From NCBI GenBank assembly GCA_011389835.1, contig JAABTO010000013.1, forward strand, positions 1 to 33,554: a stretch of 33,554 nt of DNA, read 5' to 3'. The notes beneath the pieces are model-generated. The model had not been told where the DNA came from. It saw only the letters and a list, made by a program, of their open reading frames with translations, and ran no database searches. Positions 6,265-29,427 of the stretch are shown here, one piece after another (position 1 is the stretch's first letter; every line of letters starts with the position of its first letter). The position numbers and the translations under genes were made by a program. The DNA is from Desulfotignum sp. GTDB taxonomy: Bacteria; Desulfobacterota; Desulfobacteria; Desulfobacterales; Desulfobacteraceae.

Positions 6265-7559
<1,295 letters not shown>

Positions 7560-7563
<4 letters not shown>

Positions 7564-10500
7564 TACCTGATATTATGCCATTGCGTTTAGGGGTTTACAT
7601 CTGTCACTGCGGCGTGAACATTGCCGGAAAAGTGGATGTGGCAGATGTCAGTGAATGGGCCGGATCTTTGCCCCATGTGGTCATCTCCAGGGACTACAAA
7701 TTCATGTGCTCCGAACCGGGCCAGGCCATGATTGAAACAGACATTGAAGAATATGGTCTGAACCGGGTGGTGGTGGCTTCCTGTTCTCCGAGGCTGCATG
7801 GCAAAACCTTCATGGAAACCTGCCGAAGGGCCGGGATCAATCCCTATTATTTCAACATGGCGTCGGTCAGGGAACAGGTGTCCTGGGTGACAAAAGACCG
7901 GGACCGGGCCACCCGAAAGGCCCGGCGACTGGTGGCGGCGGCCGTGAGCCGGGTGACCTGTCATCAGCCGCTGACAACGGGTCTGTCCGAAGTGTATCCG
8001 GATGTGGCCGTCATCGGCGGGGGCATTGCCGGGATGCAGGCGGCCATCGATATCGGTAACGCCGGCCTTACGGTGCATCTTATTGAAAAGGACAGCACCA
8101 TCGGGGGGCATATGCTCCAGTTTGACAAGACCTTTCCCACCCTGGACTGTGCGGCGTGTATCGGAACCCCCAAGATGGTGGAAGTGGCCCAGAATGCAAA
8201 TATCGATCTGCACACCTTCAGCCGGGTGACGGAGGTGACCGGATTTATCGGCAATTACACGTTGAATATCACGGAAAAACCCCGGTATGTGAACGCGGAT
8301 CTGTGTACCGGGTGCGGAGATTGCGCCACAGTGTGTCCGGTGTCCATTCCCAGTGCCTGGGACATGGGGCTGTCCGACCGCAAGGCCATCGGCCGCAGTT
8401 TTCCCCAGGCCATTCCCATTACGTTTCAGATCGAAAAAACCCAGACCGCCCCCTGTACCCGGACCTGTCCGGCCGGGATCAATGTTCAGGGGTATGTGCA
8501 GCTGGCAAAACAGGAAAAATATGATGAGGCCCTGGCATTGATCATGGAAAAGGCCCCGTTTCCCGGGGTCCTGGGCCGGGTGTGTCCCCATCCCTGCGAA
8601 ACCGCCTGTGCCCGGGGGGAAACGGATCAGCCCGTGGCCATCCGGCTGCTCAAGCGTTATGTCGCGGACATGGCCGGATCCGGTGCCCGGGCGATCCCTG
8701 ACAGGGGTGATCTGGAAGAGAAAGAAGAGAAAATCGCGGTGATCGGTGCCGGACCGGCCGGATTGACGGCGGCCTATTTTCTGCGGCGCAAAGGATACCA
8801 GGTCACGGTGTTCGAGGCATCGGGCCGGGCCGGGGGCATGCTCCGCACCGGGATCCCCGCGTATCGTCTGCCCAGGGAAATTCTGGATCAGGAGATCCAG
8901 CACATCCTGGACCATGGCATCGATCTGGTTCTCCATACCTGCCTGGGCAAAGAGGTGGACCTGCCCGGACTGAAACAACAGGGATTCAGTGCCGTGTACC
9001 TGGCCACCGGGGCCCATCGTTCCATGAAACTGGGCCTGGAAGGCGAAGACACCCTGTCCGGTGTCATGGATGCGACACAGTTTTTGAAACAGATCAATCT
9101 GGGGGAAGACACCCTGTGTCACGGGAACGTCCTGGTGGTGGGCGGCGGCAATGTGGCCATGGATGCGGCCCGGTGTGCCCGGCGGATTCCCGGATGCGAG
9201 GTCACCCTGGTCTACCGCCGCACCCGGCAGGAGATGCCGGCCTATGCCGATGAAATCCACGGGGCCCTTCAGGAGGGTATCACCATTCTGGAGCTGGCCA
9301 ATCCCGTGACATTGACAGGGGATCAGGGAAAAATCACCCAGGTGGTGTGCATGAAAAATGAACTGGGACCGCCGGATGATTCCGGACGGCGTCGGCCTGT
9401 GCCTGTGGAAGGATCGGAATTCATTCTGCCCTGCGATACCCTGATTCCCGCCATTGGCCAGTATCCGGATGATCTGGGAATGAATGGTCTGCCCGGGATC
9501 GAAATTACGGGAAAAAACCGGATCAAAGTCAATGAGGTCACGTTTCAGACCGGAGAGCCCGGCGTGTTTGCCGGCGGGGACCTGGTCCTGGGTCCGGCCA
9601 CGGTGGTACAGGCCATCGGCCAGGGCCGGTCTGCGGCCCGGCACATCCATGAGTTCATCCAGCATCCGGACCGGTTTGAACCTCGGACGGACGAAGGGAT
9701 TGCTGATTCAGAATCACCTGATTCGGGCGGCCCCGTTTCTGAAGACAGATCATCTTCGGGTTTGACACCAAAACCCCCGGGGTCTGTTCCCCGGGCCGAG
9801 CCCGTCTGGATGGACCCGGACCGGCGGATCCAGGGGTTTGACGAAGTGGAATCCTGCCTCACGCCGGACCAGGCCCTGGCAGAGGCAGGAAGGTGTCTCA
9901 ACTGCGGAATCTGCTGCGAGTGCAAGGCCTGTGTGGCGGCCTGCGAACGCGATGCCATCGACCATGATATGACAGCGCGGCAATATCAGATCAAGGTGGG
10001 CAGTATCATTCTGGCCACGGGATATGACACCCTGGACCCGTCCGCCATGACCCGGTTCGGTTACGGCAGATATCCCAATGTGTACACGGCCCTGGAGTTC
10101 GAGCGCTTAAGCAATGCCACCGGCCCCACCGGTGGACAGATTCTGTTGCGGGATCACGACCGGCAGTTCACAAGGGCGCCCAAATCCGTAGCCATTGTTC
10201 ATTGTGTGGGCAGCCGGGATGTGAATTTTCATGAATACTGTTCCCGGGTCTGCTGCATGTATGCGTTGAAATACACCCACCTGATCAAGGAAAAAGTGGG
10301 TCATGACACCCGGGTATATGATTTTTATATTGATATGCGCTGTTTCGGCAAAGGATATGAAGAGTTTTACAACCGGTGCCAGCAGGAAGGCACGATTTTC
10401 ATCCGGGGCAAGGTGGCCCGGATCACGCATCAACCCGGATTTGACGGAGATTCGGAACAACTGGTGGCCGTGGCGGAAGATACCTTGATGGGAGAGGTGA

Positions 10501-11012
10501 TCGAAGTGCCCGTGGATATGGTGGTGTTGTGCACGGCCATCCAGGCCCGGCAGGACGCGGGAGAAATCGGCCGGGTCCTGGGGCTCAACCAGGGGGCGGA
10601 CGGTTTTTTTCTGGAGGAACATCCCAAGCTCGGGCCCGTGAGCACGGCCACCGAAGGCGTGTTTTTGAGCGGATGCTGCCAGAAACCCATGGATATTCCA
10701 GACACCGTGTCCCAGGCATCCGGGGCTGCGGCCAAATCCCTGTCTCTGGCCGCCCGGGGCCAGGTGGAGATTTCTCCCACCGTGGCCAGTATCGATCCGG
10801 ATATCTGTGCCGGATGCCAGCTGTGCCTGAACCTGTGTCCTTATGGCGCCATTGAATTTGATGAAGACCGGCAGGTGTCCGTGGTCAACGAAGCGGTCTG
10901 CAAGGGATGCGGTTCCTGTTCCAGTGCCTGTCCCAGCGGCGCGGCCGTGAGCCGTCACTTTACCCGGAAACAGATGTTTGCCGAAATCAGCGGTGTACTG
11001 GCGGATCTTTAA
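7560..11012 (+). CDS. HdrA-like CoB-CoM heterodisulfide reductase subunit A with inserted NfnB/GltD-like NAD(P)-type FAD module
   Basis: HdrA parts: GVYICHCGVNI, VAVIGGGIAGMQAA, FPTLDCAACIGTPKM, CTGCGDCATVCP, HCVGSRD...YCSRVCCMYALK, C-terminal CAGCQLCLNLCP/CKGCGSCSSACP. Insert: CTRTCPAGINVQGYVQLAKQEKYDEAL..., VAVIGAGPAGLTAAYFLRRKG, VLVVGGGNVAMDAARCARR. ATGA overlap with the upstream gene. Confidence 0.9.
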
Positions 11013-11058
11013 GATGCCGGCCACATGTGAATAAATGTTTTTTGCAGGAGGAACCCCC

Positions 11059-11541
11059 ATGACCCAGACTGTTATGGAACCAGAGCAGGACTCACCCCCA
11101 AAGACCCCGTCTTTGAACCCGGATGCATTCGAACCGGTGGCGGTTGCATTTGTGTGCAACTGGTGCACCTACACGGCCGCGGACCTGGCCGGCACCTCTC
11201 GTCTGACATATCCGGACAATGTAAGGCTGGTACGGGTCATGTGTACGGGGATGGTGGATCCCCAGTACGTGATCAAGGCGTTTTTAGAGGGGGCCGATGC
11301 CGTGCTGGTGTCCGGGTGTCACCCCGGCGACTGCCACTATATCAACGGCAACTACAAAGCCCGGCGCAGGATCAAGCTGCTCAAGCAGATTCTGCCCCGG
11401 TTCGGCATTGATGCACAAAGGCTGCGGCTCACATGGATCGGGGCCAGTGACGGCATCGAGTTTGCACAGACCATGACCCGGTTCGTGGAAGAGATCAGGG
11501 GACTGGGACCGTGTCAGGCCCGGCTGCAGCAGGTGATCTGA
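11059..11541 (+). CDS. MvhD-type hydrogenase iron-sulfur (delta) subunit
   Basis: AFVCNWCTYTAADLAGTSR, VMCTGMVDP, VLVSGCHPGDCHYINGNYKA; ATG at 11059 after RBS GCAGGAGGA. Confidence 0.9.
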   Translation: MTQTVMEPEQDSPPKTPSLNPDAFEPVAVAFVCNWCTYTAADLAGTSRLTYPDNVRLVRVMCTGMVDPQYVIKAFLEGADAVLVSGCHPGDCHYINGNYKARRRIKLLKQILPRFGIDAQRLRLTWIGASDGIEFAQTMTRFVEEIRGLGPCQARLQQVI

Positions 11542-11579: not shown

Positions 11580-12737
11580 ATGATTGCATCCATTCAAACA
11601 AAGGACCATTCCATTACCCGGACACTTCAGGATTTTTTTGCCGGCATGTTGAAAACCGGGGCAGCGGATGCGGTATTGGTGCCGTCCCGAATGTCGGACT
11701 CCCCGTATGTGAAACCCTGCCTGATCGCGTCACATGACCGGTTGGACCGCACGGTTCCCTTGGGTCCGGGTTTTTTCGTCAATGCCGGACCCATGATGTC
11801 CCGGCTGACCCGGACCCGGGCCGGGTCGACCCTTGTCGCGTGGCTCCGGCCCTGCGAGATCCGCGCGTTTGTGGAACTGACCAAACTCAGACAGGGGGCC
11901 AGGGAGGAGGTGGTCATTATCGGCATGGACTGCCCCATGGCACTGTCCCGCACAGATTATGACGACTGGGCCGGCCAGGGGAATGATATGTCCGATGATG
12001 TGGAAAAATGGATACAGACCGTGTATCAAAAACCGGTGACTCAGGTGGATGCATGGCCGGTGTCCCGGGCCTGCCAGGTGTGCGATGCCCCGTATCCGGT
12101 GAACGCGGATGTGTCCGTGATGCTGCTGGGTGGGGATCTGGACCGGGAGATTGCATTGCGGGCCGACACGGAAAAAGGAGAAAAACTGCTGGCTGAAATG
12201 GACCTGAGCGAGGGACAGGAACCGGAACGGCGCAAGGCCCTGCTGGCGGATCTGGAGACGGAGCGCACTGAAGCGTTTCAGGCCATGGACGAGGAAATGC
12301 TCGATCAGACCGGCAGCATTGAATCTTTGAACCGGTTTTTCAGTGCCTGCGTCAACTGCTATAACTGTAGAAGCGTTTGCCCGGTCTGTTACTGCAAGGA
12401 GTGTGTGTTCAACACCGATGCCGTGGCGTACGCCCCGACCCAGTATCTTTCCTGGGCAGACAAATGGGGCCAGGTGTCCCTGCCCAATGATACCGTGTTT
12501 TTCCATCTGACACGGCTGGCCCATATCGGCTGCACCTGTGTGGGGTGCGGCCAGTGCACCCTGGCCTGTCCCAGCCATATCCCCGTGTCCGACCTGTTCA
12601 TCAGTGTCACCCGGAACGCCCGGAAAGCCTTTGATTACGTGCCGGGCAGGGATGATGCAGAACCGCTGCCCCTGTCCGTTTTTCAGGAATCGGAATTTAC
12701 CGACATTGTGGGGATGGGGAACAAGGAGGCCACATGA
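11580..12737 (+). CDS. FrhB/FdhB-like coenzyme F420 hydrogenase/dehydrogenase beta-subunit family Fe-S protein
   Basis: CVNCYNCRSVCPVCYCKECVF and CTCVGCGQCTLACPSHIPVSDLF; RBS CAGGAG before the ATG at 11580. Confidence 0.75.
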   Translation: MIASIQTKDHSITRTLQDFFAGMLKTGAADAVLVPSRMSDSPYVKPCLIASHDRLDRTVPLGPGFFVNAGPMMSRLTRTRAGSTLVAWLRPCEIRAFVELTKLRQGAREEVVIIGMDCPMALSRTDYDDWAGQGNDMSDDVEKWIQTVYQKPVTQVDAWPVSRACQVCDAPYPVNADVSVMLLGGDLDREIALRADTEKGEKLLAEMDLSEGQEPERRKALLADLETERTEAFQAMDEEMLDQTGSIESLNRFFSACVNCYNCRSVCPVCYCKECVFNTDAVAYAPTQYLSWADKWGQVSLPNDTVFFHLTRLAHIGCTCVGCGQCTLACPSHIPVSDLFISVTRNARKAFDYVPGRDDAEPLPLSVFQESEFTDIVGMGNKEAT

Positions 12738-15613
12738 CAGATCAAATCGGCAAAACCCTGGTGATCGGCGGCGGGATTTCAGGGATCCGGGCGTCTCTGG
12801 ATCTGGCCCAGGCAGGCTATCAGGTCCTGCTGCTGGAACAGTCGGACCGGGTAGGGGGACTGTTGTCCCAGCTGGACACCCAGTTCCCGACATCCACCTG
12901 CGGCATGTGCCGGATGCTGCCGATGATGGAACGGGACCGGGTGGATCAACAGTGCCTGCGCCGTGGCCTTTCCCATGACAATATCGAGATCTGTGTGTCC
13001 ACGGACCTGATTTCCCTGAAAGGAGATCCCGGAAATTTTTCGGTGTCGTTCCTTTCTCAGACCGATGGAGGAAGAGATGACTGCCCGGTGCTGGTGGTGG
13101 ATGATGAAAAAATCGTCAGAGATTCCATGAAAGAGTGGCTCAGCGAAGAAGGATACCCGGTTCAGACGGCAGATTCCGCTGCCGAAGCCCTGAATCTTCT
13201 GGCAGAGGGTTCTTTCAAGGTGATGCTCACGGATATCAAAATGCCGGGTATGGACGGGGTGACCCTGTTGACCCGGGCAAAAGAGATCCAGCCGGACCTG
13301 GCCGTGGTGATGATGACGGCGTATGCGGCCGTGGACACGGCGGTGGAAGCCATGAAACAAGGCGCCCTGGATTACCTGGTCAAGCCGTTTGATCCGGATG
13401 CCGTGCTTCAGATGGTGGACCGCATATTCAAGGATGCGGTGGCGGAAAACGCCCGGAAAGACACCGTGGATGCCGTGATACTGGCGTCCGGCGCCACTTT
13501 TTTTCAGCCGAATCTGGGCATCAATCCCTATGGATACGGCCGGATTCCCGGCGTGGTCACCAATCTGGAATTTGAACGGATGCTCAGTCATGCCGGCCCG
13601 GGCGGTATGGATCTGGTGCATCCTGTGACCGGCCGGCCGGTGACGCGCATTGCCTGGTTTCAATGCGTGGGCTCCAGAGACATCCAGACCGGCACCCCGT
13701 TTTGTTCTTCGACCTGCTGCATGATTTCCGTCAAACAGAGCCTGCTGGCGAAAACCATGTATCCTCAGGTGACCGAGGCCTGTGTGTTTTATATGGATCT
13801 GCGCACATGGGGCAAGGCATCGGATGATTATGCCCGGCAGGCAAAAAAAGCGGGTGTCCGGTTTGTTCGGGCCCGGGTCCATTCACTGGCCCCGGGCCTT
13901 AAAGAAAATGATACCGGCATTCCGGTGGTGTGGCTGGATCCGTCCGGTGACCGCAGGGAATCGTTGTTCGACCTGGTGGTCCTGGCCCCGGGACAGCACC
14001 CGGATGCGTTCCTGAGCGGTTTTGCCAAAGATCAGGAGCTGACCACGGATGACTGGGGGTTTGTCCGGCCGGAGCCGTTTTTGTCCGGACACACCAACCG
14101 GCCCGGGATATTTGTCTGCGGCGGCGCCACCGGCCCCAGAGACATTCACGATTCCGTGACCGGGGCATCGGCTGCGGCCCTGTCCGCCATGCAGGTGATG
14201 GCATCGGCCGGCCGACAGACAGTTCAGAATCCGGAAAAAACAGAATCAACCGGTCTTCGATCGGACGGGGTCTCTCTTTTTCCCGGGGCCCTGGTGATCG
14301 GCGGAGGAATTGCCGGCATGGCTGCGGCCCTGGCGATTGCAGACCAGGGGTTTGACGTGGACCTGGTGGAAAAAACCGATCATCTCGGGGGAAACCTGGT
14401 CTGGCTGCAAACAGCCATCGAGGGCGCCGGATCCTTTCTGGAAGAGCAGACGGCCGCGGTGCAGGGCCATGACCGCATCCGGATTCACACCCGCACCTGT
14501 GTGGCCGATACCATGGGCCGTCCCGGACAGTGGAACACCCGGTTGACCCCGGTCAAGGACACAGCGGAGAACACGGATGCAGACAGGCCGGAACAACTCG
14601 CGGAAAACGGTTCACCACCTGATAAATCCTCTGGTGGCAAGTCTCCGGATGTCCAGGTCCGCCACGGGGTGGTGGTGCTGGCCGTGGGCGGGGCTGAAGC
14701 GTCACCGGACCGGCCTTTGCCGGATAACGGCCCCGGCATCTATACCCAGCAGCAGTTTCAGCAGGCCCTGGATCAGGATGCCATTGATACGGGGTCGCCG
14801 CTCCATGTGGCCATGTTCCAGTGTCAGGGCAGCCGGGAACCCGGCCGGGATTACTGTTCCCGGATCTGCTGTCCCCGGTCCCTGGACCAGGCCCTGCGGT
14901 TGAAAGCCGGTCATCCGGACTCCCGGGTGGTGATATTTTACCGGGACATGATGACACCGGGGTTGAGCGAATCCGCCTACACCGAGGCCAGAAAAGCGGG
15001 TGTGGTGTTTGTTCCTTATGAACCCGGCAATACGCCGGAACTGGCAGCTGATAATACCGGGTGCCGGGTGAACTGGACAGACCCGATTCTGGGACGGGCC
15101 ATGGAAATGGCTGCGGATTATGCGGTCCTGGCTACAGGCATCCAGCCCGGCCTGTCCCGGGATCTGGCCCGCCTGTTCGGGGCTGATCTGGACCGGTCCG
15201 GATTCTTTGATCAGGCTGATATCAAATGGCGGCCCGTGGAAGCCATGGATCCGCGGGTGCTGGCCTGCGGCATCTGTCTGGAGCCGGGAAATCTGGCCCT
15301 GACACTGGCGTCTGCCCGGGCTGCCGCAGCCAAAGCCGTTTCCCTGCTGTCCCGGGAAACATTTTTCCCGGGAAAAGACACGGCCCGGGTAAGGAGCGCT
15401 TTCTGCAGCCTGTGTCAGATCTGTATCGATGCGTGTCCGTTCAACGCCCGGTTCATCGATCCGGAAACCCGCACGCTGAAGGTGGATCCCCTGGCATGCC
15501 AGGGATGCGGCATCTGTGCGGCTGCCTGCCCCTCCGGTGCTGCAGTGGTGACGGACCGGTCTCTGGCACCCATGATAAAAACCATTCATGCCGTGTTAAA
15601 CCAGCCTTTATAA
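12734..15613 (+). CDS. Tandem HdrA-like flavoprotein with an embedded receiver (REC) domain
   Basis: First half: LVIGGGISGIRASLDL, FPTSTCGMCRMLPMM, FQCVGSRD...FCSSTCCMISVK; REC insert at about 13082-13450; second half: LVIGGGIAGMAAALAIADQG, FQCQGSRE...YCSRICCPRS; C-terminal CSLCQICIDACP and CQGCGICAAACP. Confidence 0.9.
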   Translation: MTDQIGKTLVIGGGISGIRASLDLAQAGYQVLLLEQSDRVGGLLSQLDTQFPTSTCGMCRMLPMMERDRVDQQCLRRGLSHDNIEICVSTDLISLKGDPGNFSVSFLSQTDGGRDDCPVLVVDDEKIVRDSMKEWLSEEGYPVQTADSAAEALNLLAEGSFKVMLTDIKMPGMDGVTLLTRAKEIQPDLAVVMMTAYAAVDTAVEAMKQGALDYLVKPFDPDAVLQMVDRIFKDAVAENARKDTVDAVILASGATFFQPNLGINPYGYGRIPGVVTNLEFERMLSHAGPGGMDLVHPVTGRPVTRIAWFQCVGSRDIQTGTPFCSSTCCMISVKQSLLAKTMYPQVTEACVFYMDLRTWGKASDDYARQAKKAGVRFVRARVHSLAPGLKENDTGIPVVWLDPSGDRRESLFDLVVLAPGQHPDAFLSGFAKDQELTTDDWGFVRPEPFLSGHTNRPGIFVCGGATGPRDIHDSVTGASAAALSAMQVMASAGRQTVQNPEKTESTGLRSDGVSLFPGALVIGGGIAGMAAALAIADQGFDVDLVEKTDHLGGNLVWLQTAIEGAGSFLEEQTAAVQGHDRIRIHTRTCVADTMGRPGQWNTRLTPVKDTAENTDADRPEQLAENGSPPDKSSGGKSPDVQVRHGVVVLAVGGAEASPDRPLPDNGPGIYTQQQFQQALDQDAIDTGSPLHVAMFQCQGSREPGRDYCSRICCPRSLDQALRLKAGHPDSRVVIFYRDMMTPGLSESAYTEARKAGVVFVPYEPGNTPELAADNTGCRVNWTDPILGRAMEMAADYAVLATGIQPGLSRDLARLFGADLDRSGFFDQADIKWRPVEAMDPRVLACGICLEPGNLALTLASARAAAAKAVSLLSRETFFPGKDTARVRSAFCSLCQICIDACPFNARFIDPETRTLKVDPLACQGCGICAAACPSGAAVVTDRSLAPMIKTIHAVLNQPL

Positions 15614-15623
15614 GGGAGGGAGT

Positions 15624-16190
15624 ATGCACCTGACAGACATACGTGAAAAACTGGCGGCCCGGCCGGACCTGACCCGGCAACTGGCACAGGTCAAGGAACA
15701 GGTGGCCACCTGCATCCAGTGCGGGACCTGTTCGGGTTCCTGTCCCAATGCCGGATTCATGGACATGACCCCCCGGCGGATGTGGCGGGCTGTGCTGACG
15801 GACCGGGTGGACATGGTGTTTTCGAGCCAGACGTTCATGCTGTGCGCCAGCTGTTATGTGTGTACCCTGCGCTGTCCCCGGGGACTGCCGTTGACCGGTG
15901 CCATGGCCGAACTCAAGCAGGTGGCGTTTGGTCTGAACCTGGACCGGTTCAAACGGTCCACCCTCTTTTACAAGGCGTTTATGGACAATATCCGCCAATA
16001 TGGCCGGGTCCGGGAAACCGAAATGATGGCCCGGTATTTTCTGGCGGTCAAAGACCCCCGGGTTCCCATGTCTTACACCGGTATGGGCATCAAACTCATG
16101 GCAAAACACAAACTGCACCCGCACCTTCCCACCTGGGGACCGGGCAGACTGGCACCCCTGTTTGACCGGGCAAAGCAACAGGAGCGATGA
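15624..16190 (+). CDS. HdrC-like heterodisulfide reductase subunit C (4Fe-4S)
   Basis: 188 aa; CIQCGTCSGSCP and CASCYVCTLRCPRGLPL. Confidence 0.88.
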   Translation: MHLTDIREKLAARPDLTRQLAQVKEQVATCIQCGTCSGSCPNAGFMDMTPRRMWRAVLTDRVDMVFSSQTFMLCASCYVCTLRCPRGLPLTGAMAELKQVAFGLNLDRFKRSTLFYKAFMDNIRQYGRVRETEMMARYFLAVKDPRVPMSYTGMGIKLMAKHKLHPHLPTWGPGRLAPLFDRAKQQER

Positions 16191-16191
16191 T

Positions 16192-17034
16192 ATGGATTAT
16201 CTTTATTATCCGGGCTGTTCTCTGGAAGGCACAGCCAAAGAGTATGACATTTCCTGCCGGGCATTGTTTGAGGCCCTGGAAGACCGTCTGACGGAAATAC
16301 CCGACTGGACCTGCTGCGGCGCCACCGCAGCCCAGTGCGTGGACCCGTTTCTTTCCGTGGTCCTGCCGGCCCGGAACCTGGCCCTGGCGGAAAAAACCGA
16401 TACCGGACTGGATGTGCTGGTGCCCTGCAGTGCGTGTTACCTGAATTTGAAAAAAGCCCGGCAGGATCTGTGGGAAAACAACGCCCTGCGCGCTCAGGTA
16501 AACCAGGTGCTGGAGGAGGACGGGCTGGCGGTCAATGCATCCGTGCGGGTCCGTCATCTGCTGGATGTACTGACCCGGGACGGGGCTGTGGACCGGGTGG
16601 CGCAGCTTTCTGAAAACCGCATGAAAGGCCTGGTGATCGCTCCTTATTATGGGTGCCAGTGCCTGCGGCCCTATGTGGAATTCGATGATCCGGAGCAACC
16701 CCGGTCCATGGATGCCCTGATTCGGGCCACCGGTGCCGATGTGCTGGCATGGGACATGGGAGCGGTGTGCTGCGGGGCCTCCACCGCCACCACCAAACCA
16801 CAGGTGGGAAAGGAACTGGTGGGCCGGATTCTGGATCAGGCAAAGACGGCCCATGCTGTGGTGACCGTGTGTCCCATGTGTCAGATGAACCTGGAGCGGT
16901 TCCAGTCCCGGTCGGTGCCGGTCGTGTATCTGCCGCAGTTTCTGGGGCTGTCTTTGGGCATGCCTGCCGAATCTCTGGGCTGTGGTATGAACCTGTCCGA
17001 TATCCGGCCGGTGCTGTCCCGGGTGGCGCCATGA
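16192..17034 (+). CDS. HdrB-like heterodisulfide reductase subunit B (two CCG domains)
   Basis: YYPGCS...WTCCGAT...CSACYLN and YYGCQCLRP...VCCGAS...CPMCQMNL; ATG at 16192. Confidence 0.9.
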   Translation: MDYLYYPGCSLEGTAKEYDISCRALFEALEDRLTEIPDWTCCGATAAQCVDPFLSVVLPARNLALAEKTDTGLDVLVPCSACYLNLKKARQDLWENNALRAQVNQVLEEDGLAVNASVRVRHLLDVLTRDGAVDRVAQLSENRMKGLVIAPYYGCQCLRPYVEFDDPEQPRSMDALIRATGADVLAWDMGAVCCGASTATTKPQVGKELVGRILDQAKTAHAVVTVCPMCQMNLERFQSRSVPVVYLPQFLGLSLGMPAESLGCGMNLSDIRPVLSRVAP

Positions 17035-19331
17035 CCCGTTTGTTGGATTATTTCCGTAACAGCCTGGTGTTCCGGCTTATTTTCGTTGTGAGCCTGACAG
17101 TTGTGTTTTCCATCTCGTTGTGGGCCTTTGTCAACGTCAGAAACTTCAAGGCCAGAAACATGGAAACCCATATCGCATCCACGGACCGTCTGAGCAATTC
17201 CATCAAACTGGGCACCCATTATGCCATGATGCTCAACTCCCGGGACGACATCAATCAGATCATCAACAATATCGCCCGTCAGCCGGAAATCGAAAACATC
17301 CGCATCTACAACAAGGAAGGCCAGATCAAATTTACCAATCAGCCGCAGGAAGTGGAGCAATATGTGGATATCAAGGCCGTGGCCTGTGATATCTGCCATA
17401 AAATGGATCCGGCACCCTCGGAAATTTCCCTGGAAGAACGGACAAGGATTTTTCAGTCACCGGACGGCCACCGGCTTTTAGGCATTGTGCAGCCCATCCG
17501 CAATGACCCGGGATGTGCCACCAGCGACTGCCATTTCCATTCCGAAGATCAGACTATTTTAGGCGCCCTGGATGTGGTGGTGTCTTTGAAAGAGACTGAT
17601 GCCCAGGTGGTGAAAATGGAACAAGGGGTGTTCAGCCTGGCGTTTTTCACGATTCTGATCACGTCGGTCATCATTTTTCTGACCACATTGTTTTTTGTGA
17701 AAAAACCCATTATCAAGCTGGTGGAAGGCACCCGCCGCATTGCCAACGGCGATTACGAGGCAGACATCGATATCGGCCAGGCCCATGAAATTCGGCCCCT
17801 GGGAAAAGCGATCCAGCAGATGGGCGAAAAGATCGGTGCTCATCAGACGGCCTTGAAAAAGCAGAAAGATGAATACCAGGCTTTGTTTGATAACGCCCCG
17901 TGCATGATCGCGGTGCAGGACAAAAATTTCCGGCTGATCCAGTACAACCGGGCGTTCAAGGAACGGTTCAATCCACGGCTTGGAGATTACTGCTACTCGG
18001 TATACAAAGGACTGGACCATCAATGCCCGGACTGTGCAATGGAAAAAACCTTTATCGACGGTCAATCCCATTCCGGGGAGACCGAAGGTATCGGCCGCAA
18101 TGGTCAGAAAAAACACTGGATATTTATCACCGCGCCCATGCGGGATGAAAAGGGTGATATTGTGGCCGGCATGGAAATGAGCATCGACATCACCCAGCGC
18201 AGACACCTGGAACAGGACCTGAAAAAGTCGGAAGAAAAATACCATGCCATTTTTAATAACATTTTCAACCCCGTGTTTGTGGTGGATCAGGATTCACTGG
18301 AGATCCTGGACTGCAATATCAAAGCCATGGAACTGTATCATACCGGCGGGAAAACCCTGACGGGAAAATTGTTCAGTGATTTTTTCCCCCGAGAGGATCA
18401 GGCGGACCTGATCCGGCAGGTGAAATCCAAAAAAGAGATTTCCAAGGTCAAGCATATCAAGGCGGACGGCAGAAAAATCGATGTGGACATGTGGGTGGCC
18501 CCGGCGGAATACTCGGGTCAGAACGTGTTTTTGATCACCATCAATGATATCACCCAGCGGCTGGAAACCGAGCAGCACCTGCTCCATGCCAGCAAAATGG
18601 CCACTTTGGGCGAGATGTCCACCGGCATCGCCCATGAACTGAATCAGCCGTTGTCCGTCATCAAGTCTTCCGCCAGTTTCTGCCTGAAAAAGATCCATGG
18701 TCAGGAACCCATTTCAGAAGAGATTTTCCATAAATTGATCGGAAAAATCGACATCAATGTGGACCGGGCAGACAAAATCATTCAGCACATGCGCCAGTTC
18801 GCCAGAAAATCAGATGTCCGGCTGGTGAGGACCCGGATCAATGACGTGATCCAGCAGACCTTTGATATGCTCAATCAACAGTTGAAAATTCGGGGCATCC
18901 AGGTATTATGGGAGAAAAACGACACGTTGCCCGACATTCTGGCTGATCCGGATCGCCTGGAACAGGTGTTCATCAACCTGGTGATGAATGCCAAGGACGC
19001 CATCGAAGCCAAATGGGACGTCCGGGGAACGGGGGATGACGGCAACGACCGGATCGTCATCCACACCTTTGTGGCGGATGACAAGGTGGTTGTCCAGGTG
19101 AGCGACACCGGCATCGGGATTAGAAAAGAGGCCAGAGACCGCCTGTTCGAACCGTTTTTCACCACCAAGGAAGTGGGCAAGGGCACCGGCCTGGGCCTGT
19201 CCATCTCCTATGGTATCGTCAAGGACTGCCAGGGAGATATCCAGGTGAGCACAAGTCAGGACGGCGGTGCAAAATTTACCCTGGTCTTTCCGGTTTCCGA
19301 AGAAACGGACGAGGACATTGAATATGCCTGA
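17031..19331 (+). CDS. Membrane PAS sensor histidine kinase with extracytoplasmic candidate haem-c motifs
   Basis: ATG at 17031 (ATGA overlap with hdrB stop); TM LVFRLIFVVSLTVVFSISLWAFV; ACDICHK and GCATSDCHF before the second TM FFTILITSVIIFLTTLFFV; HAMP/PAS; H-box GIAHELNQPLSVIKSS; NLVMNAKDAIEAK; GTGLGLSISYGI. Confidence 0.9.
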   Translation: MTRLLDYFRNSLVFRLIFVVSLTVVFSISLWAFVNVRNFKARNMETHIASTDRLSNSIKLGTHYAMMLNSRDDINQIINNIARQPEIENIRIYNKEGQIKFTNQPQEVEQYVDIKAVACDICHKMDPAPSEISLEERTRIFQSPDGHRLLGIVQPIRNDPGCATSDCHFHSEDQTILGALDVVVSLKETDAQVVKMEQGVFSLAFFTILITSVIIFLTTLFFVKKPIIKLVEGTRRIANGDYEADIDIGQAHEIRPLGKAIQQMGEKIGAHQTALKKQKDEYQALFDNAPCMIAVQDKNFRLIQYNRAFKERFNPRLGDYCYSVYKGLDHQCPDCAMEKTFIDGQSHSGETEGIGRNGQKKHWIFITAPMRDEKGDIVAGMEMSIDITQRRHLEQDLKKSEEKYHAIFNNIFNPVFVVDQDSLEILDCNIKAMELYHTGGKTLTGKLFSDFFPREDQADLIRQVKSKKEISKVKHIKADGRKIDVDMWVAPAEYSGQNVFLITINDITQRLETEQHLLHASKMATLGEMSTGIAHELNQPLSVIKSSASFCLKKIHGQEPISEEIFHKLIGKIDINVDRADKIIQHMRQFARKSDVRLVRTRINDVIQQTFDMLNQQLKIRGIQVLWEKNDTLPDILADPDRLEQVFINLVMNAKDAIEAKWDVRGTGDDGNDRIVIHTFVADDKVVVQVSDTGIGIRKEARDRLFEPFFTTKEVGKGTGLGLSISYGIVKDCQGDIQVSTSQDGGAKFTLVFPVSEETDEDIEYA

Positions 19332-19343
19332 AAGGAGGCGTTC

Positions 19344-20489
19344 ATGGACAGGACATCATTCACCATTCTGATCGTGGACGATGAAGAAGATATCAGAGAG
19401 GTGCTTGAAATCGCGCTCATGGACATGGGTCATCAGGTGCTGCTGGCCCCGGACGGAAAAAAAGCCCTGGAACTGTTTGATGCGCATCACCCATCCATTG
19501 TGATCACGGATATCAAAATGCCGGTCATGGGCGGCATCGACCTGCTCAAACAGGTGAAGCGAAGGTCTCCGGACACCCCGGTCATCATGATCACGGGACA
19601 CGGAGACATGGACCTCACCATTGCCAGCCTGAAATTCGGGGCCGCGGATTTCATCACCAAACCCGTGAACGTGGACATTCTGGAACTGGCTGTGAACAAG
19701 GCAGCCGATCACCTCATCGCCCAGCAGAAACTGGTGGAATACACCCAGAAACTGGAACTGCTGGTGCTGGAAAAATCCAAACTCTCCGATCACCTGTCCT
19801 CTTTGGGCCTGATGCTGGGCACGGTCTCCCATAACATCAAGGGCATGCTCACCAACCTGGACGGCGGGCTGTATGTGGCCCGGTCCGGTCTGAAAAAAAA
19901 GGATTTCGACGATATCTCCGAAGGGCTGGATCTGCTGTCCCAGGCCGTGGAAAAGATCAAGCAGATGATCATGGACATCCTGTTGTATTCCAAGGAACGG
20001 TCCATGAATATCCAGCCCGTGCCCCTGGATCAGTTTGTCGCAGATATTCGGGAAACCATGAAAATGAAACTGGCCAGCCACCCCATCGATTTCCAGGTGG
20101 CAACAGACAACGCCCCGGCCACCCTGAATCTGGACCCCGCCTCAATGATGTCGGCGCTGGTGAATATTCTGGACAATGCCGTGGACGCCTGTGTGGAAGA
20201 CAAAGATCAGGTCGATCACGTCATTTGTCTGACCATCGAAGAAAAAGACGATCAGCTGGTGATCAGTATCCAGGATGACGGCTGCGGTATGGACGTGGAA
20301 ACCAAGACCAAAATTTTTGATCTTTTCTTTTCTTCAAAGCAGGTCAAGGGCACGGGATTCGGCCTGTTCATCGCAAGAAACATTATCGCCCAGCATCAGG
20401 GCACCATCAACGTGGAATCGATCAAACGCCGGGGTACGACCTTCACGATTTTTCTGCCCCTGGATCCATTGTCGGACCAAGATGTGTGA
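19344..20489 (+). CDS. REC-histidine kinase
   Basis: REC: LIVDDEEDIREV, ITDIKMPVMGG, ITGHGDM, KPVN; kinase: GTVSHNIKGMLTNLDGG, NILDNAVDACVE, DDGCGMD, GTGFGLFIARNI. Confidence 0.88.
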   Translation: MDRTSFTILIVDDEEDIREVLEIALMDMGHQVLLAPDGKKALELFDAHHPSIVITDIKMPVMGGIDLLKQVKRRSPDTPVIMITGHGDMDLTIASLKFGAADFITKPVNVDILELAVNKAADHLIAQQKLVEYTQKLELLVLEKSKLSDHLSSLGLMLGTVSHNIKGMLTNLDGGLYVARSGLKKKDFDDISEGLDLLSQAVEKIKQMIMDILLYSKERSMNIQPVPLDQFVADIRETMKMKLASHPIDFQVATDNAPATLNLDPASMMSALVNILDNAVDACVEDKDQVDHVICLTIEEKDDQLVISIQDDGCGMDVETKTKIFDLFFSSKQVKGTGFGLFIARNIIAQHQGTINVESIKRRGTTFTIFLPLDPLSDQDV

Positions 20490-27297: not shown

Positions 27298-27327
27298 TTG
27301 ACATTTTGGCCTGCAGATGGTTATACA
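27298..27327 (+). promoter_or_regulatory. Sigma70-like promoter upstream of the rnfB-like fusion gene (TTGACA-18-TATACA)
   Basis: Perfect -35 TTGACA at 27298-27303; weaker -10 TATACA at 27322-27327; ATG at 27397. Confidence 0.4.
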
Positions 27328-27396
27328 GTACAGGATTATTCCGGCGCAACCGGACCGGTATCGGAAAACAACACAAAAAACCATAGAGGATACGGC

Positions 27397-29427
27397 ATGA
27401 TTCAATCGATTCTGATGATGGGGGGACTGGGGGTGGTTATCAGTACGGCCCTGGTGATCGCGTCCAAGGCGTTTTATGTTTACGAAGATCCCAAGGTTCT
27501 GGCGATCGATGATGTGCTGCCCGGTGCCAACTGCGGCGGCTGCGGCCTGCCCGGGTGCACCGCCAATGCCCAGGCCATTGTGGCCGGAAGAGCCAGCGTC
27601 AATTCCTGTGTGGCGGCCGGTGATGATGTGGCCCAGGCCATTGCCGCCATCATGGGGGTATCAGTGACCGACAAGGAACCGGAGTTTGCGGCCCCGGGGT
27701 GTTATTACGGCAATGCCAAAGCCGATCTCAACTATGAGTATCAGGGAATCAGTGACTGCCGGGCCGCTGCCATGCTTTTGGGCGGCATGAAGGTCTGTCA
27801 TATCGGGTGCCTGGGACTGGGGACCTGTGTGACGGCCTGCATGTTCAATGCCCTTTCTATGGGGCCGGACGGACTGCCCGTGGTGAATGAGGAAAACTGT
27901 ACCGGGTGCGGGGCCTGTGAAAAGATCTGCCCCAAAAACATCATCCGGCTGACATCCGTGACAAGGCGGATCATTCGGGAATACACGGTCCAGGACTGCA
28001 CCACACCCTGCCAGAGAGCCTGCCCGTCCGGGCTTGATATCCGAAAATATGTGGGATTGATCCAGGAAGGGGATTATGCCGGTTCGCTGGCGGTGATCAA
28101 GGAAAGAATGCCGTTTCCCACGGTCATCTCCCGGATCTGCCCGCAGCTGTGCGAGTTTGACTGCCGTCGGCTGCTTCAGGATGAAACCGTTGCCATCAAC
28201 GATCTGAAACGGTTTGTCTGTGATTATGAAAGAAAACAGCCTGAGCGGATTCAGCCGTATAAAGCCCCGGCCACGGACAAGACCGTGGCGGTGATCGGCG
28301 GCGGCGTGGAAGGTCTGTCGGCCGCGTATTTCACGGCCCGTCTGGGCCATGCGCCCACGGTGTTCGAAAAAACCGAAGTATTGGGAGGTATTCTGCGGAC
28401 CGCCATCGCCAGAGACCGCCTGACCATGGATCTGCTGGACTGGGATATCCAGGGGATTGAGGATCTGGGGGTCACCTTTAAAACCGGCGTGTCCGTGGGA
28501 ACCGACATCACCATACCCCAGCTGCTGATGGGGGAAGGGTTTGATGCCGTGTTCATTGCCACGGGCGGATGGGATTCCCGCATGGCCAGAAACGAAGGGG
28601 ACAACCCCACACCGCTGTTTCCTGGGGCCTGTCTGCTCATTGATCTGGTGCGCAGCGGCCGGGACGATAAAATCCAAGTGGATTGCGGTAAACATGCCGT
28701 GATCGCCGGGGGAGGAAAATATCTGGCAAAAGCTGTCGAAACCCTGCTGGCAAAAGGGGTTGAAACCGTGACCGTGGTCTCCAGAAATCCGGAAGACGAC
28801 CCGGATGTGGATCTGTCAAGCCTGGACAAAGAGACTGCGCAGGCGGTGACCGTGATTTGCCATGCCGGTATCACCAAGGTGACCGGTCAGGAAGAGGCCC
28901 TGACCGGAGTTGAAGCAGTGGATCTGATGACCGGAGAAAAACAGGAGATTGCGGCAGATACCTTGATCATCGGGGCCGGGCGGTTTCCGGAACTGGTGTT
29001 TTTGCCGGTCAAAGAAACCGATGAAACCGGTGAAATGATTGCCGGAGGCGCCTTGAAATGGGAAGGGCGTGAACTGCCCAAGAAACCGGATGTCCCGCTT
29101 CAGATCGGCCTGCTGTCAAAACAGGATGTGATCTCCGAATATCCGTCCGCAGTGGCTGCCATCAATGGTGGCCGGAAAGCGGCGGCAGCGGTGCACCATT
29201 ACATGTATGGCCTGGAATTTCAGGATCCTGACCTGTTGATCACAAAACACAGCCGGATTCAGAATGTCAATGAGATCAAACAGGTGGAAACCACGCCGAA
29301 AACCGTCTGGGATGATCTGGCGCAGCCTATTGCTGCGGCCACCGGGTTTTCCGAAAAAAATGCCCGCAAGGAAGCGGACCGGTGCCTGCAGTGCGGGTTG
29401 ATCTGCTATGAAAAACAAACAAGCTGA
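27397..29427 (+). CDS. RnfB-like ferredoxin subunit fused to a GltD/NfnB-like FAD oxidoreductase module
   Basis: RnfB part: N-terminal TM, PGANCGGCGLPGCTANAQAIV, CHIGCLGLGTCVTACMF, CTGCGACEKICP; GltD part: CTTPCQRACPSGLDIRKYVGLIQEGDYAGSLAVI, VAVIGGGVEGLSAAYFTARLG, C-terminal EADRCLQCGLIC. ATG at 27397. Confidence 0.87.
   Translation: MIQSILMMGGLGVVISTALVIASKAFYVYEDPKVLAIDDVLPGANCGGCGLPGCTANAQAIVAGRASVNSCVAAGDDVAQAIAAIMGVSVTDKEPEFAAPGCYYGNAKADLNYEYQGISDCRAAAMLLGGMKVCHIGCLGLGTCVTACMFNALSMGPDGLPVVNEENCTGCGACEKICPKNIIRLTSVTRRIIREYTVQDCTTPCQRACPSGLDIRKYVGLIQEGDYAGSLAVIKERMPFPTVISRICPQLCEFDCRRLLQDETVAINDLKRFVCDYERKQPERIQPYKAPATDKTVAVIGGGVEGLSAAYFTARLGHAPTVFEKTEVLGGILRTAIARDRLTMDLLDWDIQGIEDLGVTFKTGVSVGTDITIPQLLMGEGFDAVFIATGGWDSRMARNEGDNPTPLFPGACLLIDLVRSGRDDKIQVDCGKHAVIAGGGKYLAKAVETLLAKGVETVTVVSRNPEDDPDVDLSSLDKETAQAVTVICHAGITKVTGQEEALTGVEAVDLMTGEKQEIAADTLIIGAGRFPELVFLPVKETDETGEMIAGGALKWEGRELPKKPDVPLQIGLLSKQDVISEYPSAVAAINGGRKAAAAVHHYMYGLEFQDPDLLITKHSRIQNVNEIKQVETTPKTVWDDLAQPIAAATGFSEKNARKEADRCLQCGLICYEKQTS

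Follow-up and report, generated by a model that had tools for sequence, protein, structure and literature searches.

A response-regulator receiver domain inside a tandem HdrA-like flavoprotein of sulfate reducers points to probable two-component control of a heterodisulfide reductase-type complex

In a 33,554-nucleotide stretch of DNA from Desulfotignum sp. (the window; contig JAABTO010000013.1 of assembly GCA_011389835.1, positions 1 to 33,554 of the forward strand), a complete response-regulator receiver (REC) domain lies within a tandem HdrA-like flavoprotein of 959 amino acids, here called HdrA-REC (12734–15613, ATG start), of which orthologues are known. Since this REC is under purifying selection, the operon encodes three kinases and there is no DNA-binding regulator in it, the best reading, which we regard as reasonably probable, is that a heterodisulfide reductase (Hdr)-type and possibly electron-bifurcating complex is under direct, post-translational two-component control. 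Two-component systems act mostly on transcription, and the REC-enzyme fusions known so far are, to our knowledge, few and little studied. Here, the REC is built into the core subunit of a machine that ranks among the main ones for cytoplasmic electron transfer in anaerobes. It is present in about 40% of the genomes sampled from a large sulfate-reducing order, and the operon also encodes a likely heme-sensing kinase. If the reading is true, electron flow would be phospho-regulated, which may explain quick adjustment of low-potential electron flow.

The first-pass annotation of the window had placed a complete REC at about residues 117–240, in the first half of the protein, with the phospho-acceptor codon at 13232, and both domain search and structure prediction agree. 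Pfam Response_reg (PF00072) matches residues 119–228 over 110 of its 111 model positions (E = 4.8e-31, 107.6 bits against a cutoff of 30.2 bits), and the AlphaFold2 model has five alternating strand/helix units at 119–238, i.e. a REC fold. The predicted local distance difference test score is 84–90 for most of 120–190 and 70–79 for 190–240, in a model whose overall confidence is moderate (71.5). All the motifs of a REC are there, namely VVDDEK (D123/D124), LTDIKMPG (D167, codon 13232–13234), MMTAYAA (T195) and LVKPF (K217), and the domain can be delimited to residues 118–235 (13085–13438; this and all the features below are on the plus strand). When solved structures were searched with phmmer, residues 7–105 and 244–382 were found to match residues 153–241 and 328–465, respectively, of Methanothermobacter marburgensis HdrA (8rvu). 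HdrA sequence resumes from residue 244 onward, as had been claimed, and because the two matches flank the REC, the latter occupies the position of the ferredoxin that is inserted in HdrA. Foldseek returned HdrA and thioredoxin reductase (TrxR)-type flavoenzymes but no REC, which is expected for a whole-chain query.

The rest of the protein is built of two HdrA units. Half 1 starts with the N-terminal part of a flavin adenine dinucleotide (FAD)-binding, TrxR-like domain (residues 1–110; 12734–13063), followed by a junction (13055–13084) at which orthologues have an inserted ferredoxin of ~75 residues with two [4Fe-4S] clusters that is deleted in the window's subclade. Beyond the REC comes the remainder of the TrxR-like domain (residues 245–495; 13466–14218), which contains the QCVGSRD...FCSSTCC cluster cysteines C311, C324, C328 and C329. 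This half bears an FPTSTCGMC motif with C56 and C59, the second of which is equivalent to HdrA Cys197 in the alignment of an orthologue (L004) to 5odc. The N-terminal [4Fe-4S] domain of HdrA is absent, and a 20-residue linker (14222–14278) stands in place of the N-terminal-type domain of ~150 residues that orthologues have before half 2. The second FAD/TrxR-like domain (residues 516–880; 14279–15373; cluster cysteines C697, C708, C712 and C713) is without an inserted ferredoxin and, as had been noted from the translation, without the FPxxxCxxC motif of Cys197. The chain ends with a ferredoxin with two [4Fe-4S] clusters (residues 888–936, 15395–15541; Fer4_7 match at 891–936). Of the features that define HdrA, the FAD/TrxR domain with its CVGSRD...CxxxCC cysteines and the C-terminal ferredoxin are thus present, while the N-terminal domain and the inserted ferredoxin are missing, the latter from five congeners as well. 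With scores short of the NCBIfam cutoffs for HdrA and HdrA2 (444 bits against 1100, and 329.5 against 1400), the protein is best described, at the level of its sequence, as HdrA-like and not as the NCBIfam equivalog.

A survey of whole genomes across the phylum of the window, in which counts take no account of relatedness, showed that the fusion is widespread. In the order to which the window belongs (Desulfobacterales), 94 of the 242 sampled genomes, representing 50 of 113 genera and including single-contig genomes, carry one copy each of a REC-containing HdrA, and in the phylum-wide sample it was found in 14 of 395 genomes, seven of them from other orders. Congeners have the REC at the same site, and so do members of other families of the order and of a few other orders; its placement is fixed across dozens of genera, well outside what chance could produce. 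Five congeners of the window genome have the same in-frame architecture, with 82–84% identity. However, apart from one subclade within the genus of the window, every orthologue whose N-terminal region is available has an intact CxxCxxCxxxC-CxxCxxCxxxC ferredoxin followed by the REC. In one of these orthologues (L004), the match to Methanothermococcus thermolithotrophicus HdrA (5odc) runs over residues 145–310, is interrupted by the REC of ~120 residues and resumes at 319. Judging from such alignments, the REC was added at a structural hinge, where the chain leaves the inserted ferredoxin and re-enters the FAD domain. The earlier proposal that a REC sits in place of the ferredoxin therefore describes the window gene and its five congeners, which lack these ~75 residues and likewise the ~150-residue N-terminal-type domain before half 2, but not the family in general.

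A tree of HdrA computed without the ferredoxin and REC columns puts these changes in order. The ferredoxin-less proteins form one clade (support 100) and so do the REC-less ones, and in the sampled tree the REC was gained once and the ferredoxin was lost once, after REC insertion and in a single subclade within the genus of the window. Replacement of the ferredoxin by the REC as the founding event is therefore rejected, the loss being a later and single one. Tandem HdrA relatives without a REC also exist (L026 and L055). Within the window's genus (L110–L114 and the gene at 12734–15613), the deletions of the inserted ferredoxin and of the N-terminal domain of half 2 fall on one branch, and the ferredoxin loss in this subclade offers a natural comparison for what the REC targets. 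Derivation of the HdrA REC from the two REC-containing kinases of the operon is not supported, since the HdrA RECs cluster apart from those of the kinases in a REC tree, albeit one with few columns. In three loci, Usp-REC(-Usp) proteins adjoin the Hdr cluster (L004, 15169–16500; L010, 2831–4033; L123, 13934–15445) and their RECs are in the same clade as that of HdrA-REC (98 in the Shimodaira–Hasegawa-like approximate likelihood ratio test), a grouping that suggests domain shuffling within the locus.

The REC is under strong purifying selection and was retained after ferredoxin loss. Among the REC-bearing orthologues that cover these positions, D123/D124 are kept in 39 of 39, D167 and K217 in 42 of 42, and T195 is invariant. 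The lone exception in each of the columns of D123/D124, D167 and K217 is a REC-less protein (L044) that is misaligned there, and as these are the only departures at catalytic positions, the idea of a degenerate REC is rejected. Within the ferredoxin-less clade, the ratio of non-synonymous to synonymous substitution rates (dN/dS) of the REC is 0.09–0.15, which is similar to that of the C-terminal ferredoxin and below that of the rest of the protein. Mean pairwise identity among 28 divergent orthologues is 65.5% for the REC, 67.7% for the FAD Rossmann part and 53–60% for the other domains.

The closest known relatives, by sequence and fold, are the HdrA subunits of HdrABC-MvhADG, Hdr-Fdh and Elp-Hdr (5odc, 7bkb and 8rvu). 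The window protein shares with them the FAD/TrxR-like domain, the Cys197 motif, the QCVGSRD...CxxxCC cysteines and the C-terminal 2x[4Fe-4S] ferredoxin. It differs in having two units per chain and a REC placed where the inserted ferredoxin ends, and in having lost both that ferredoxin and the N-terminal domain. Tandem HdrAs in which Cys197 (of Methanothermobacter wolfeii HdrA) and the N-terminal domain show complementary loss have been described (PMC9012536), so that the absence of FPxxxCxxC from half 2 is not special. As in HdrA3/HdrA4 of anaerobic methanotrophic archaea (ANME) and in Moorella MetFV-HdrABC (PMC9012536), the two halves of the ferredoxin-bearing orthologues are complementary for Cys197 and the N-terminal domain. 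Unlike in these systems, a REC is present and the halves are reversed, with Cys197 in the first and the N-terminal domain before the second, while in the window clade the N-terminal domain has been lost altogether. REC domains fused to metabolic enzymes, such as REC-thioredoxin reductase and REC-pyruvate phosphate dikinase, are also known (PMC5847659). There too the REC dispenses with a DNA-binding output, but it is attached to another enzyme, whereas in HdrA-REC it lies within an Hdr subunit, at a domain hinge. No description of an HdrA-receiver fusion was found in the open-licence literature.

The gene lies in an operon in the order REC-kinase, HdrL, MvhD, FdhB-like, HdrA-REC, HdrC, HdrB, membrane kinase and REC-kinase, which recurs across many families and in which several neighbours overlap by 4 nt. 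A REC-HisKA-HATPase kinase (RECHK1, 6265–7563) overlaps in this way with an HdrL-type HdrA (7560–11012) that has an NfnB/GltD-like NAD(P) module in its inserted ferredoxin, as do ANME-1 HdrA9–11 and HdrL of Desulfobacterium autotrophicum, NfnB-inserted HdrAs being already known (PMC9012536). Next come MvhD of the FlpD family (11035–11541) and an FdhB/FrhB-like iron-sulfur protein (11580–12737), which matches beta subunits of F420 formate dehydrogenases and has no Pfam match at E ≤ 1e-5. HdrA-REC is followed by HdrC-like (15624–16190) and HdrB-like proteins, the latter with two cysteine-rich CCG domains (16195–17034), then by a membrane histidine kinase (17031–19331) that overlaps hdrB by 4 nt, and finally by a REC-HATPase kinase (RECHK2, 19344–20489). 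The published hdrL/hdrA4-hdrCB locus VIII of D. autotrophicum HRM2 has, in the accessible part of its description, the same order HdrL-MvhD-FdhB-HdrA-HdrC-HdrB, and that part does not mention a REC in HdrA4 (PMC2702500). One of the surveyed loci (L129), inferred from its gene content to be locus VIII, has a REC like the window but, unlike it, retains the ferredoxin and has no adjacent kinases.

The membrane kinase is composed of an extracytoplasmic sensor, HAMP, two PAS, HisKA and HATPase domains. Between its predicted helices, judged by eye from the translation, the extracytoplasmic loop contains CDICH (CxxCH) and CATSDCHFH motifs, and CxxCH together with a second Cx3-4CHxHP motif is kept in 28 of 28 orthologues, which suggests that the protein is possibly a two-heme sensor. 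CxxCH is shared with the c-type-heme sensor domains of Geobacter chemotaxis proteins (PF21563, Mcp40H-20_sensor) and with sCache_heme domains (PMC12889525), from which the kinase differs by its additional conserved Cx3-4CHxHP motif; here the motifs are on a kinase and not on HdrA. PF21563 scores the orthologues L003 and L008 above its cutoff and the window kinase just below (25.3 against 27). A kinase with these heme motifs is encoded in 76 of the 94 genomes with a REC-containing HdrA, against 35 of the 148 without, and within 12 kb of it in 56 of the 76. Likewise, a kinase gene is found within 3.5 kb at 25 of 27 loci of REC-containing HdrAs, against six of 20 loci of REC-less HdrA paralogues in related genomes (Fisher p = 2e-5, relatedness disregarded). 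A DNA-binding response regulator is encoded neither in the window's operon nor in most of the orthologous neighbourhoods, although in a few (L119 and L121) there is one on the other strand.

These findings outline a model in which HdrA-REC would serve a soluble Hdr-type complex (HdrL, MvhD, FdhB-like, HdrA-REC, HdrC and HdrB) as its large flavoprotein subunit, and in which two-component phosphorylation would determine the activity or assembly of this complex post-translationally. The membrane kinase would probably sense a periplasmic redox or gas signal via covalently bound c-type heme, and phosphorylate D167 together with the two REC-kinases. Phosphorylation of D167 by the operon kinases is likely, and a functional effect on the enzyme is probable too, if with less assurance. 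In the ancestral form, the REC is at the return of the ferredoxin to the FAD domain, so that phosphorylation could move or lock the ferredoxin and thereby allow or block electron flow through the low-potential branch, a detail that we consider rather unlikely. In the window's subclade, where the ferredoxin is gone, the REC would more likely control how partner subunits dock or directly alter the conformation of the FAD domain. At its broadest, the model would make of this a lineage-wide switch by which sulfate reducers turn the (electron-bifurcating) Hdr complex on or off through a hinge REC and a periplasmic c-heme kinase, linking outside redox conditions to low-potential electron flow; we give this extension somewhat less than even odds.

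Several points weigh against this model. Phosphorylation, the redox effect and subunit interaction are all inferred, electron bifurcation is presumed from homology and operon content, and the substrates of the complex are likewise putative. The RECs of the REC-kinases could be the main partners of the kinases, persistence of the REC without the ferredoxin weakens the gating detail, and the counts across genomes disregard relatedness. Moreover, the Hdr genes with a REC in D. autotrophicum HRM2 (G028, L129) have no kinase within several kb, and locus L009 is likewise without an adjacent one.

Signalling might also run the other way, the Hdr complex acting as a sensor whose FAD/Fe-S state alters phosphorylation or phosphatase behaviour of the REC, which would report to the kinases or serve as a phosphate sink. 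The REC-kinases of the operon could join such a relay, the operon of the window has no DNA-binding output, and the Usp-RECs next to the cluster in L004, L010 and L123, being in the same REC clade, suggest REC-to-REC traffic. However, the location of the REC within a catalytic subunit at a structural hinge favours an output on the enzyme, and a phosphate sink requires no fusion, so that we hold this scenario to be unlikely. Less likely still is a role of the REC as an anchor that holds the complex to the membrane kinase or another partner, with phosphorylation tuning this interaction without gating electrons. Survival of the REC after ferredoxin loss and its strong genome-wide co-occurrence with the membrane kinase would be in accord with docking or localization, but a pure docking role does not need invariance of all the phosphorylation residues. 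A mis-assembly joining two genes, as the first-pass annotation had feared, or a decaying and functionless insert can be dismissed, even though the window genome is a draft of 405 contigs with 88% estimated completeness, since the in-frame orthologues in five congeners and in 94 of 242 genomes of the order, single-contig ones included, refute an artefact and the low dN/dS argues against decay.

Elsewhere in the window, the translation of 27298–29427 reads as an RnfB-like 4Fe-4S segment joined to a flavoprotein module of GltD/NfnB type, with a weak BLAST match to HdrL.

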